From: Paracrocinitomix mangrovi
Lineage (GTDB): Bacteria > Bacteroidota > Bacteroidia > Flavobacteriales_D > Crocinitomicaceae
Length of the DNA stretch: 64,000 nucleotides
Reading direction: 5' to 3'
Assembly: GCF_019740355.2 (NCBI RefSeq)
Contig: NZ_CP091819.1
Coordinates: forward strand, 620,001-684,000
Shown here: positions 59,413 to 64,000 of the stretch, in pieces
Position numbering within the stretch: the stretch's first letter is position 1
Layout: each line of letters begins with the position of its first letter
The notes under the pieces: generated by a model
What the model was told of the DNA's origin: nothing
What the model saw: the letters and a program-made list of their open reading frames with translations, nothing else
Databases searched by the model: none
Translations under genes and position numbers: made by a program

Positions 59413-60471
59413 ATGAAAAAGGAATTCAGTCATTTCAAACCTTCTGAAAAAAGGTTGACTGAACTATCTAAAGAAACTGATGACCTAGAATTCTGCTATG
59501 AAGCTTTGAAAAAAGTATCAAGATCTTTTGCAGTTGTAATACAGCAATTACCTAAAGAATTACAAGATCCGGTTTGCCTTTTTTACCTTATACTTAGAGG
59601 ACTTGACACTGTTGAAGATGACATGCAAATTGACCAAATAGAAAAAGAAAAACTGTTGACGTCTTTTGCAGAGCGAATGAACAAAGAGGCATTTACGCTT
59701 AAAAATATTGGTGACACTCAGGATTATCAGGATTTGATGTTGCACTTTGATAAAGTGTTGCGTGTTTATCATGGTTTAGCTCCTCAGTACAAAGAAGTAA
59801 TCACAGAAATCACTGATGAAATGGCACATGGCATGAATAAATATGCCCATGAAAAAGTTATTTCATATGCTGATTGGGATGATTATTGCTACTACGTAGC
59901 CGGCTTGGTTGGAATAGGATTAAGTAAATTATTCTTAGCCTCTGATCTTGAAAAAAGTGAAAAATTAGCAGACAAAGCACTTTCTAACGAAATGGGATTG
60001 TTTTTGCAAAAAACCAATATCATTCGTGATTTTGCTGAAGACCTGGAACAGGACAGAGTATTTTGGCCTGAAGAAGCCTGGAAAGGAAGAGTGGAAAAAT
60101 TGGAAGATCTTCAAAAAAATGAACAAACCGGTTTAAATGTTCTCAACGAAATGGTGATTAATGCCTTGAACCATGTTCCTGCATGTATGGATTACTTAGA
60201 ATCATTGGAGGATAAAATGGTATTCAGATTTTGTGCAATCCCACAATTGATGGCAATTGCAACACTAGCCGAACTATATAACAATGAAAATGTTCTACAT
60301 AAGAATGTTAAAATTAGAAAAGGTAGAACTGCAAGGTATTTTATGTCAATTAATACCTTTGAACAAACAAAAACAGAATTTGTAAAAATTTTACAATCAC
60401 TCTCTAAGCAAGACCCTAGTCAAAAGGTTAATAATATCTTGACAAAAGTGAACGCTTATGAAAACGTTTGA
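59413..60471 (+). CDS. squalene synthase, eukaryotic (FDFT1/ERG9) type
   Basis: Condenses two farnesyl diphosphates, via presqualene diphosphate, to squalene with NADPH. 352 residues from ATG 59413; an in-frame TTG at 59353 would add a non-conserved 20 residues. The first Asp-rich motif is DTVEDD (65-70), the second is RDFAED (205-210). The segments SRSFAVVIQQL, DDYCYYVAGLVGIGLSKLF, MGLFLQKTNIIRD and FCAIPQLMAIATLAELYNN match the eukaryotic enzyme nearly residue for residue as I recall it, and not bacterial HpnC/HpnD or CrtB. The C-terminal membrane anchor of the eukaryotic enzymes is absent. It overlaps the squalene monooxygenase gene by 14 bases. Confidence 0.92.
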   Translation: MKKEFSHFKPSEKRLTELSKETDDLEFCYEALKKVSRSFAVVIQQLPKELQDPVCLFYLILRGLDTVEDDMQIDQIEKEKLLTSFAERMNKEAFTLKNIGDTQDYQDLMLHFDKVLRVYHGLAPQYKEVITEITDEMAHGMNKYAHEKVISYADWDDYCYYVAGLVGIGLSKLFLASDLEKSEKLADKALSNEMGLFLQKTNIIRDFAEDLEQDRVFWPEEAWKGRVEKLEDLQKNEQTGLNVLNEMVINALNHVPACMDYLESLEDKMVFRFCAIPQLMAIATLAELYNNENVLHKNVKIRKGRTARYFMSINTFEQTKTEFVKILQSLSKQDPSQKVNNILTKVNAYENV

Positions 60472-61774
60472 TTACGACATAATAGTAATTGGTGCAGGAG
60501 TAGCAGGGGGAGTCTTTGCTGCTTCGCAAAACAAGGATAAAAAAATCCTTGTAATAGAAAGAGATTTAACTGAACCTGACAGAATTATCGGTGAACTAAT
60601 GCAACCCAGAGGCCTTCAAGCACTTGAAGAAATGGGTTTAGCTCATTTAGTTGAAGGATTTGACGCTCAAGTTGTAGAAGGTTATAAACTCATCAAGGGA
60701 GACGAAACATTTACCATTCACTACAAAGATGTTGATAATGGCATCAAGGGAATTGGTTTAAGAAATGGTAAGTTCCTTACAGCTATCCGAAACGATATTA
60801 AATCCAAAGAAAACATTGATCTTGTTGAAGGAAATGTAACAGACCTTATTGAAGAAAACAATGTGGTTACTGGCGTTTCTTATACCAATGCGCAAGGTGA
60901 AGAATGTAAAAGTTCAGCAGCCATGGTGGTAGTTTGCGACGGCCCAATGTCTTTCTTCAGAAGCAAGTTGAGTAAACCAAACAAAAAGGTTACTTCTTAC
61001 TTTATGGGATTGGTGCTTAGGGATTTGGATTTAGAACATCCTTCTTTAGGACACATGATTGTTACAGGTGATGCACCTGTACTGGTTTACCCTATTCATT
61101 CTAACGGATATAGAATCTTAATTGATTATCCGGGAGAAAAACCTCCTAGAATTGGAACCAAAGCGATTGAAAAATTTAAGGAAGAGATTTCAGCAGTACT
61201 TCCAAAAGAAATGGTTCCTTCATTCGTGAATGCAATTGAAAATGATCAGTTGAAAGTAATGCCTAACCACAGTATGAAAGCTCAAGCTTTTAGAAAAAAA
61301 GGTGTTGTGCTACTTGGAGATTCATTAAACATGCGTCATCCGTTAACCGGTGGAGGAATGACTGCCACGTTTAATGACATCATCAGCTTGAACAAGGCTT
61401 TAGATGGCGTAGATGTGCACAATTCAGAAGCTTTAGAAAAAGCTGTCGAATCATATTATGAAAATAGATCAGAAGAAGTTGAAACAATCAATATTTTGGC
61501 AAACGCTTTGTATAAAGTGTTTAGAGATGCTGATTTGAAAGAGGCTTGTTTTGAATATCTCCAAAAAGGAGGTGAACAATCAACTGGTCCACTTTCAATT
61601 TTAGCAGGAATAAACAGAAATAAAAAGTATTTACTAAAGCATTTCTTTAAGGTAGCCATGCAACATCCTTTGCATTTTGTTACCAAACCTAAAAAGCAAA
61701 TGCGACTTTATAAAAATGCGGTAGGCATCATACGTCCTATTCTTAAAGATGAGGACCAACCTGCCATTGTGTAA
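60458..61774 (+). CDS. squalene monooxygenase (squalene epoxidase)
   Basis: FAD enzyme that turns squalene and O2 into 2,3-oxidosqualene, the committed step to sterols. 438 residues. FAD-binding GAGVAGG (12-18) with ERD after it, RIIGELMQPRGL (42-53), VEGFDAQVVEGY (65-76) and, decisive, GDSLNMRHPLTGGGM (287-301), a motif special to this family. The C-terminal hydrophobic helices (SILAGINRNKKYLLKHFF) are present; the long N-terminal regulatory region of animal enzymes is missing. A geranylgeranyl reductase assignment is excluded by the NMRHPLTGGGM block. Its start lies within squalene synthase and its stop overlaps the isomerase start, so the three are strictly coupled. Confidence 0.92.
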   Translation: MKTFDYDIIVIGAGVAGGVFAASQNKDKKILVIERDLTEPDRIIGELMQPRGLQALEEMGLAHLVEGFDAQVVEGYKLIKGDETFTIHYKDVDNGIKGIGLRNGKFLTAIRNDIKSKENIDLVEGNVTDLIEENNVVTGVSYTNAQGEECKSSAAMVVVCDGPMSFFRSKLSKPNKKVTSYFMGLVLRDLDLEHPSLGHMIVTGDAPVLVYPIHSNGYRILIDYPGEKPPRIGTKAIEKFKEEISAVLPKEMVPSFVNAIENDQLKVMPNHSMKAQAFRKKGVVLLGDSLNMRHPLTGGGMTATFNDIISLNKALDGVDVHNSEALEKAVESYYENRSEEVETINILANALYKVFRDADLKEACFEYLQKGGEQSTGPLSILAGINRNKKYLLKHFFKVAMQHPLHFVTKPKKQMRLYKNAVGIIRPILKDEDQPAIV

Positions 61775-62796
61775 TGGAGAAGATAGAACATGAATCGTTA
61801 GAAGCGGCTGACAATCGTAAGCAAAGTCACCTTGATTTAGCATTTGAATCACAAAGTGCCAAATTAGATGATAGATTTTATTACGAACCAATGTTATCAG
61901 GACATCCTACAGAAGATGAAAGTATGTCCGTTAAGCTGGGGAATAAAACAATGAAGTATCCTATTTGGATTTCTTCAATGACGGGGGGAACATCTAAAGC
62001 CGGACCATTAAATAAAATGTTAGCTAAAACAGCTGCCAAATATGGTTTTGGAATGGGATTGGGTTCATGTCGAATCATCTTAGAAGACAATACCTATTTT
62101 GAAGATTTCAATTTAAGACCCATTTTAGGAGACGAAGTACCATTTTATGCCAATGTTGGTATAGCCCAAATTGAACGAATTTTACAAGAAAATAAAGGTG
62201 ATCTTCTTAAGAAATTGGTAGAAAAGCTGAGTGCTGATGGTTTGATAGTTCACGTAAACCCTTTACAGGAGTGGCTTCAACCAGAAGGCGATTTGATTCA
62301 GCAATCTCCTTTAGTAACAATTCAACAACTTTTAAATGAATTTGACAAGCCTATTATCGTAAAAGAGGTTGGACAAGGATTCGGTCCTAAAAGTATGGGT
62401 GAATTGTTGAAACTCCCACTAATGGCGGTAGATTTCGCAGCTAATGGAGGTACTAATTTTTCAAAGCTTGAGTTAATTCGTAACAAAAAATTGCAAGATT
62501 TTTACGGTGATGTTGTAGCTTTGGGACATTCAGCGGAAGAAATGGTTACTTTTTTGAACGATACCGTTGATAAACTAGCTAGCTTAAGAAAGTGCAATCA
62601 CGTAATCATCAGTGGAGGTGTAAAAAACTTCCTAGATGGGTATTATCTGATTTCAAAATCTGAACTTGATGCAGTATATGGTCAGGCTGCGCCTTTTCTT
62701 AAATATGCTAACGAATCGCAAGAAGCATTGGATGAATTTGCTGCGTTTCAAATTAAAGGCCTACAAATGGCACAAAGATTATTAAGAGTAAAGTGA
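61774..62796 (+). CDS. fni: isopentenyl-diphosphate delta-isomerase, type 2 (FMN)
   Basis: Interconverts IPP and DMAPP with FMN and NADPH. 340 residues on a TIM barrel. Typical motifs are NRKQSHLDLAF at the N-terminus, SSMTGGT (67-73), HVNPLQEWLQPEGD (160-173) and AANGGTNFSKLE for FMN binding. The isomerase is essential in the mevalonate route, which makes only IPP. The ATG overlaps the squalene monooxygenase stop by one base (TAATG), and the HMG-CoA reductase gene follows after 15 bases. Confidence 0.93.
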   Translation: MEKIEHESLEAADNRKQSHLDLAFESQSAKLDDRFYYEPMLSGHPTEDESMSVKLGNKTMKYPIWISSMTGGTSKAGPLNKMLAKTAAKYGFGMGLGSCRIILEDNTYFEDFNLRPILGDEVPFYANVGIAQIERILQENKGDLLKKLVEKLSADGLIVHVNPLQEWLQPEGDLIQQSPLVTIQQLLNEFDKPIIVKEVGQGFGPKSMGELLKLPLMAVDFAANGGTNFSKLELIRNKKLQDFYGDVVALGHSAEEMVTFLNDTVDKLASLRKCNHVIISGGVKNFLDGYYLISKSELDAVYGQAAPFLKYANESQEALDEFAAFQIKGLQMAQRLLRVK

Positions 62797-62811
62797 TTGA
62801 ATAAGTAAGTG

Positions 62812-64000
62812 ATGGATAAATTTATTGAAGGGTTTTCGAAAAAGGAAAGAGAAGATAAGATTAGAGCCATAGCTCAGTTCTTCAAAGATTCCGACAAGGC
62901 AGTTTCTACTTTTAAAAGTTTTAATCATCCTGATGCCAAAATTCAGGAGATGATAAATGAGTTTAGTGAGAATACAATTTCAAATTTTCACTTACCCTAC
63001 TCTATAGCACCTAATTTTTTAATCAATGGTAAAACTTATGCAATACCAATGGTTATTGAAGAAAGTTCAGTTGTAGCTGCAGCTTCTAAAAGTGCTAAAT
63101 TCTGGCACAAATTAGGTGGATTCAGAACAGAAATCATTGACACAGAAAAAGTAGGTCAAGTTCACTTTGTTTGGAAAGATGATGTCAATAAATTGAAAGC
63201 CAGATTTGAGGAGTTGAAAGAATTGTTGATTGAAGGATCAGCTGACATCACTAAAAACATGCAAGCCAGGGGCGGAGGAATCAAAGATATCGTTTTGAGA
63301 GATCTATCTGATAAAGAACCGGGAGCTATGCAGCTTTTTGTGACTTTTGAAACAGTTGATTCAATGGGAGCCAACTTCGTAAATTCTTGCTTAGAAAGAT
63401 TTGCTGACCTATTCAGAGACTGGCATAAGGATCAAGATGAATTTACTCCTAACGGATTAGAAATCATCATGTCTATCCTTTCAAACTTAACTCCTAACTG
63501 TATGGTAAAGTGTTGGGTTGAAACTGAATTGGAAAACATGAACGACATTGTTCCTGGTATAACAGGAGAAGAATTTGCTAATAAATTCAGACGTGCTGTA
63601 CGAATTGCACAAATAGATCCATACAGAGCAACTACACATAATAAAGGAATTTATAACGGAATTGATGCTGTTGTTTTAGCAACTGGTAACGATTTTAGAG
63701 CAGTAGAAGCGTGCGGACATGCATATGCTAGCATGAATAAAGACGGTTACACTTCTTTAACTCATTGCGAAATTAAAGATGGTAAGTTCAGATTTGAGCT
63801 TAACCTTCCAATTGCATTAGGTGTAGTTGGTGGTTTAACTAATCTCCATCCTTTGGTAAAATTGTCACATGAAATTTTAGATCATCCTTCGGCTAGAGAA
63901 TTAATGAGTATTGCTGCAGCTGCTGGATTAGCAAACAATTTTGGAGCGGTAAAATCATTGACTACAACCGGTATCCAACAAGGACATATGAAAATGCACC
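62812..64000 (+). CDS. class II hydroxymethylglutaryl-CoA reductase (3' end outside the window)
   Basis: Reduces HMG-CoA to mevalonate, the committing step of the mevalonate pathway. 396 codons are visible and the frame is open at the last base, so the gene continues. Class II features: IPMVIEESSVVAAAS (catalytic Glu at ~83), GGGIKDI, the HNKGIYNGIDAVVLATGND segment with Lys278 and Asp294, and the GHMKMH motif at the window end that leads to the catalytic His region. It is the fourth gene of the squalene operon. Lower genes of the pathway (mevalonate kinase and others) would be expected downstream or elsewhere. Confidence 0.93.
   Translation, partial: MDKFIEGFSKKEREDKIRAIAQFFKDSDKAVSTFKSFNHPDAKIQEMINEFSENTISNFHLPYSIAPNFLINGKTYAIPMVIEESSVVAAASKSAKFWHKLGGFRTEIIDTEKVGQVHFVWKDDVNKLKARFEELKELLIEGSADITKNMQARGGGIKDIVLRDLSDKEPGAMQLFVTFETVDSMGANFVNSCLERFADLFRDWHKDQDEFTPNGLEIIMSILSNLTPNCMVKCWVETELENMNDIVPGITGEEFANKFRRAVRIAQIDPYRATTHNKGIYNGIDAVVLATGNDFRAVEACGHAYASMNKDGYTSLTHCEIKDGKFRFELNLPIALGVVGGLTNLHPLVKLSHEILDHPSARELMSIAAAAGLANNFGAVKSLTTTGIQQGHMKMH

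Follow-up and report, generated by a model that had tools for sequence, protein, structure and literature searches.

Sterol synthesis in the family Crocinitomicaceae (Bacteroidota) is already known, and the sterols of bacteria bear both on the reading of steroid biomarkers and on the origin of eukaryotic sterols. A described producer of the family is Fluviicola taffensis RW262, in which cycloartenol and no other sterol is detected by GC-MS, no downstream sterol genes are found, and the squalene monooxygenase (SQMO) and oxidosqualene cyclase (OSC) are Fluta_3221 and Fluta_3214, respectively (Wei et al. 2016, PMC4919349). The product of an OSC has been linked to the residue at position 453, with valine leading to lanosterol and isoleucine to cycloartenol, and this rule holds for all bacteria tested (PMC4919349). 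In bacteria, natural cyclases with a Y,H,V triad are regarded as lanosterol synthases (PMC5101207), and Gemmata obscuriglobus is listed as making lanosterol and parkeol (Table 3 of PMC4919349). When the corresponding change is introduced into plant cycloartenol synthase, the resulting I481V mutant produces a mixture of cycloartenol, lanosterol, and parkeol (PMC8617677).

The genome of Paracrocinitomix mangrovi (NZ_CP091819.1), a single contig of 4,365,762 bases, encodes a system of this kind. The window, the 64,000-base stretch analyzed here (bases 620001-684000), carries the front of a nine-gene operon that, with a probability of roughly 85%, takes HMG-CoA to a mainly lanosterol-type C30 sterol with a dedicated mevalonate supply. 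The first gene (59413..60471, + strand) encodes a 352-aa eukaryote-type squalene synthase (SQS/ERG9 family), which scores 390.9 bits against TIGR01559 (cut-off 286.75) in profile searches and only 56.8 and 38.8 bits against HpnD and HpnC, with the HpnD, HpnC, and CrtB models all well under cut-off. Its best matches among solved structures are the squalene synthases of Trypanosoma cruzi and human (E ~1e-77), and it is predicted from sequence to form squalene from farnesyl diphosphate (FPP). The second (60458..61774, +), overlapping SQS by 14 nt, encodes a 438-aa squalene monooxygenase (squalene epoxidase), which reaches 257.6 bits against PF08491 (cut-off 20.1), matches human squalene monooxygenase (6C6N) with E = 1e-78 compared with 4e-10 for the next FAD monooxygenase, and retains the motif GD(S/A)(L/Y)NMRHP(L/V/I)TGGGM in alignment with human SQLE. 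The signature motifs quoted for these two proteins in the original prediction, DTVEDD, RDFAED, YCYYVAGLVGIGLS, and GDSLNMRHPLTGGGM, are all present.

Next come the genes for a type 2 isopentenyl-diphosphate isomerase (IDI2; 61774..62796, +, 340 aa) and a class II HMG-CoA reductase (HMGR; 444 aa), the latter starting at 62809 (GTG) or 62812 (ATG) on the + strand and ending at 64143, 143 bases past the window edge at 64000 (full gene L003:17810-19144). IDI2 scores 188.6 bits against TIGR02151, below the model cut-off of 281.3, and is 75-88% identical to the copies of syntenic relatives; HMGR scores 294.5 bits against PF00368 and 283.7 bits against TIGR00532. These four genes had been predicted to overlap or nearly overlap and to couple precursor supply directly to epoxidation, with a cyclase perhaps lying next to the window, and all of this is borne out. 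They share the + strand with gaps of -14, -1, and +12 nt, and the series continues beyond the edge, in a segment (L002) numbered from window base 63500 as base 1, with a GYDIA-family GHMP kinase (L002:641-1558, +; NF040656, 299.7 bits), which we infer to be the phosphomevalonate kinase, a diphosphomevalonate decarboxylase (MVD; L002:1559-2614, +; PF22700, 122 bits), a mevalonate kinase (MVK; L002:2621-3562, +; TIGR00549, 85.1 bits, below cut-off), and a short-chain prenyl diphosphate synthase, the putative FPP synthase (FPPS; L002:3566-4543, +; PF00348, 242 bits). MVK and MVD, like IDI2, score below the NCBIfam cut-offs. The last gene, whose start lies about 4 kb outside the window, is the suspected cyclase, a 763-aa OSC with a DCTSE motif (L002:4549-6840, + strand, equivalent to window positions 68048-70339); it is the only triterpene cyclase, and the sole PF13249 match, in the genome.

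The order is therefore SQS-SQMO-IDI2-HMGR-GYDIA kinase-MVD-MVK-short-chain prenyl synthase-OSC, with eight intergenic gaps of -14, -1, +12, -4, 0, +6, +3, and +5 nt. Because of this tight spacing (-14 to +12 nt), the nine genes are read as one operon and are probably co-transcribed, which places mevalonate genes, SQS, SQMO, and OSC in a single predicted unit. In the route proposed for it, HMGR, MVK, the GYDIA kinase acting as phosphomevalonate kinase, MVD, and IDI2 would provide IPP and DMAPP, from which the prenyl synthase, whose chain length is a prediction, would make FPP. SQS would then join two FPP into squalene, SQMO would use O2 to convert squalene to 2,3-oxidosqualene, and OSC would close the rings via the protosteryl cation to yield a four-ring sterol skeleton. 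The locus is a compact, testable unit, with one operon predicted to take HMG-CoA all the way to a sterol. Downstream of OSC on the same strand lie two further small genes, an ORF without a family and one for a CYTH protein; they have no match in syntenic relatives and, for this reason, are left outside the operon core.

The nine-gene order is identical in all intact loci of three genera of Crocinitomicaceae, namely the window's own genus, Fluviicola, and Taishania, and loci split between contigs (in genus g18 and genomes G042 and G132) are consistent with it. An order repeated in every intact related locus examined is far beyond chance. F. taffensis RW262 carries the same nine-gene operon, with SQMO and OSC 68% and 74% identical to those of P. 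mangrovi, and the spacing between Fluta_3221 and Fluta_3214, the tags given in PMC4919349, exactly matches that between SQMO and OSC here. The operon is hence not new in kind and is ordinary for the family. Elsewhere, the same parts occur in other arrangements. In genus g4 of the same family, IDI2-HMGR-GYDIA-MVD-MVK-FPPS stand at one locus (L174, L175), while OSC is divergent from SQS-SQMO at a separate locus (L057, L058), and genomes G021 and G023 have HMGR-GYDIA-MVD-MVK with no sterol genes adjoining. The operon of the window looks like a mevalonate string to which SQS-SQMO has been added at the front and OSC at the end. Among other Bacteroidota and the Chlorobiota, a divergent orientation of OSC and SQS-SQMO is the usual one, and some of the loci (L072, L074, L075, L105, L110, and L119) have a prenyl synthase or mevalonate genes in the vicinity. 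The loci of Methylococcales likewise have SQMO adjoining a sterol-type OSC; however, they contain neither a eukaryote-type SQS nor mevalonate genes within 10 kb, and the triads of their OSCs are mostly Y/Q/V or Y/N/V instead of Y/H/V.

Several features place the cyclase in the sterol-type class. Its catalytic motif is VTDCTSEG, of the DCTAE type, not the DXDD of squalene-hopene cyclases; it matches human lanosterol synthase (1W6K) with E = 1.2e-205 and 46.5% identity, compared with E of about 4e-36 for squalene-hopene cyclase, an identity that is consequently rejected; and it falls with the sterol-type cyclases in the tree. Eudoraea adriatica, another member of the Bacteroidota in which SQMO stands beside OSC, is reportedly an arborane producer, raising the alternative that the P. 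mangrovi enzyme makes arborane triterpenols and not sterols. The two share V453, and the Eudoraea SQMO is of the Bacteroidota type, but identity between the two cyclases is only 33.5%, and that of Eudoraea carries F/N/V in place of Y/H/V and forms a separate, very long branch, with neither SQS nor mevalonate genes encoded within 10 kb of it. Given the identity, the triad, and the tree placement, an arborane-type cyclase is ruled out for practical purposes, its likelihood being only a few in a hundred.

In alignment with human lanosterol synthase as reference, the cyclase of P. mangrovi has Y381, H449, A450, V453, and D455-C456. The active site is thus like that of cycloartenol synthase in Y381 and H449 but has V453 and A450, so that it departs from the cycloartenol-synthase pattern Y381/H449/I453 and agrees with the V453 rule for lanosterol. 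The combination Y/H/I with G450 occurs in F. taffensis and the Fluviicola closest to it, and Y/H/V with A450 in Taishania, g18, part of Fluviicola, and the genus of the window. On the basis of V453 and A450, a lanosterol-type product is predicted rather than pure cycloartenol, mainly lanosterol, possibly together with parkeol and cycloartenol, and hence a product different from that of F. taffensis. The product of an OSC is not settled by one residue or even by three. It is conceivable, if rather improbable, that V453 and A450 are without effect and that cycloartenol is made as in F. taffensis, whose OSC shares 74% identity, the same operon, and Y381 with H449; an I-to-V change in cycloartenol synthase still leaves some cycloartenol (PMC8617677). 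Against this, residue 453 fully tracks the product among the bacteria tested by Wei et al., and every cyclase of the set with H449 and V453 also has A450, including one from a separate bacteroidote lineage (L102).

With a lanosterol-type product remaining the preferred prediction, the enzyme shares its active-site triad with the bacterial Y,H,V lanosterol synthases but, unlike them, belongs among the Y/H/I cyclases of Bacteroidota, in an alignment whose scope does not extend to Gemmata. The best OSC tree places the I453 Fluviicola within the V453 sequences, with two changes in all, but V453 cyclases forming one clade are compatible with the AU test (p-AU 0.18), so that either direction of change between V453 and I453 is conceivable. 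As V453/A450 and I453/G450 cyclases occur in one family and in the same gene context, the single-residue rule for lanosterol and cycloartenol becomes directly testable.

Besides the mevalonate genes, the genome encodes both MEP enzymes that were searched for, Dxr (TIGR00243, 469 bits) and IspG (TIGR00612, 471 bits). In Streptomyces, mevalonate clusters lie beside terpenoid genes, on top of the MEP pathway. The arrangement in P. mangrovi is alike in being a second, apparently dedicated IPP pathway tied to a terpenoid branch; it differs in that the branch is that of sterols and that HMG-CoA synthase is undetected. Across 40 genomes of the family scored for SQMO, HMGR, and IspG, HMGR is present in all seven with SQMO compared with 3 of the 33 without (Fisher p = 6e-6, uncorrected for kinship), and IspG accompanies SQMO in all seven as well. 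Because MEP enzymes are also encoded and HMGR co-occurs with SQMO, the mevalonate genes are read as sterol-dedicated. On the simplest reading, housekeeping falls to MEP, and the mevalonate module would serve as a precursor supply, and direct flux, to the sterol branch beside it; such a co-occurrence atop MEP suggests a second IPP pathway set aside for a membrane lipid.

It has to be considered whether the mevalonate genes are instead a general isoprenoid supply to which the sterol genes are merely adjacent. The free-standing mevalonate strings of g4, G021, and G023 speak for this, as does G013, with HMGR present and IspG undetected. Two of the three genomes with HMGR and without SQMO have no detected IspG, one genome being only 59% complete. 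However, P. mangrovi itself encodes Dxr and IspG, all SQMO-bearing genomes (7 of 40) have HMGR and IspG while 30 of the 33 others are without HMGR, and a Fluviicola relative without SQMO and OSC (G030) is also without HMGR. A general supply is consequently judged unlikely, and a dedicated one is favored.

Where the HMG-CoA comes from is a separate question. No match to HMG-CoA synthase (PF01154) is found in the genome, and none of the 40 family genomes has one above cut-off, while control genomes gave matches, so the mevalonate pathway as recognized in P. mangrovi is incomplete at this enzyme. A literature search on HMG-CoA synthase in flavobacteria gave nothing useful. HMG-CoA may be derived from leucine breakdown or made by a divergent synthase. 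The fuller scheme, in which MEP does the housekeeping and the operon makes lanosterol/parkeol-type sterols from leucine-derived HMG-CoA, is a tentative proposal with the odds well against it; if true, it would mean a bacterial membrane sterol built from an amino acid. A coupling of sterol genes to mevalonate genes is not described in the available part of PMC4919349, nor in other literature retrieved by a search mostly outside subscription journals. What is new here is the triad with A450 and the product change that it predicts, the apparently dedicated mevalonate supply, HMG-CoA synthase that is undetected, and CYP51 that is unrecognized.

SQS and SQMO were held to be eukaryotic in type. By family membership they are; by descent, in trees where eukaryotes are represented by human and T. 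cruzi only, both have bacterial neighbors, most of them from Bacteroidota. The operon clade of Crocinitomicaceae includes neither the SQS of human and T. cruzi nor human SQLE. The SQMO clusters with bacterial SQMOs and human SQLE, apart from a PqsL-like outgroup, and, as the original prediction required, neither protein lies within CrtB or generic FAD-monooxygenase clades. A recent transfer from eukaryotes to bacteria finds no support in these trees, and, with so few eukaryotes in them, the direction of any ancient transfer is beyond their reach.

As for the fate of the product, a sterol demethylase, for which the original prediction proposed a genome search, is not recognized: the two P450s of the genome, compared with solved structures, best match CYP102- and CYP97-type enzymes, and a CYP51 identity is rejected for both. 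Since CYP51 is unrecognized, a C30 sterol is expected, and the end product probably keeps its methyls at C-4 and C-14 (4,4,14-methylated). F. taffensis RW262 is similar in having no recognized gene for C-14 demethylation. Two PF04116 proteins were considered as C-4 methyl oxidases and dismissed, ornithine-lipid hydroxylase being the best match. An HpnC/D/E route was likewise considered and rejected for this genome: besides the SQS of the operon, it encodes only one other SQS_PSY protein, which is presumed to be a phytoene synthase from its position between CrtI-like and CrtD-like genes.

HMG-CoA synthase (PF01154) scored above the cut-off in 0 of 40 genomes of the family Crocinitomicaceae (that of P. 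mangrovi and 39 others), with no such match even among those that carry the mevalonate-pathway HMG-CoA reductase (HMGR), including G013, a genome in which HMGR is present and the MEP-pathway enzyme IspG was not detected. Away from the sterol operon, the P. mangrovi genome has a carotenoid gene cluster (L059:3567-7787, corresponding to about 1963566-1967786 of G000:C1) composed of CrtI-like, phytoene-synthase-like (SQS_PSY family) and CrtD-like genes.

The oxidosqualene cyclase (OSC) of an uncultured bacteroidote (L102, CAKZQD010000200.1) has the triad Y/H/V together with A450, and it adjoins the Methylococcales clade, separate from Crocinitomicaceae; its combination of V453 and A450 is apparently a separate one. 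At another locus, a PF04116 membrane hydroxylase is fused with rhodanese domains in a single open frame of 602 aa (L145:226-2031).

The sterol operon of CP034120.1 (L066) groups with Fluviicola, and genome G095, placed under the Fluviicola genus code g10, is 4,606,342 bp long, equal to CP034120.1. On the basis of this identical length and the operon grouping, CP034120.1 appears to be a misnamed record. Its GenBank title, 'Glaciecola amylolytica strain THG-3.7', uses a name from the Gammaproteobacteria.
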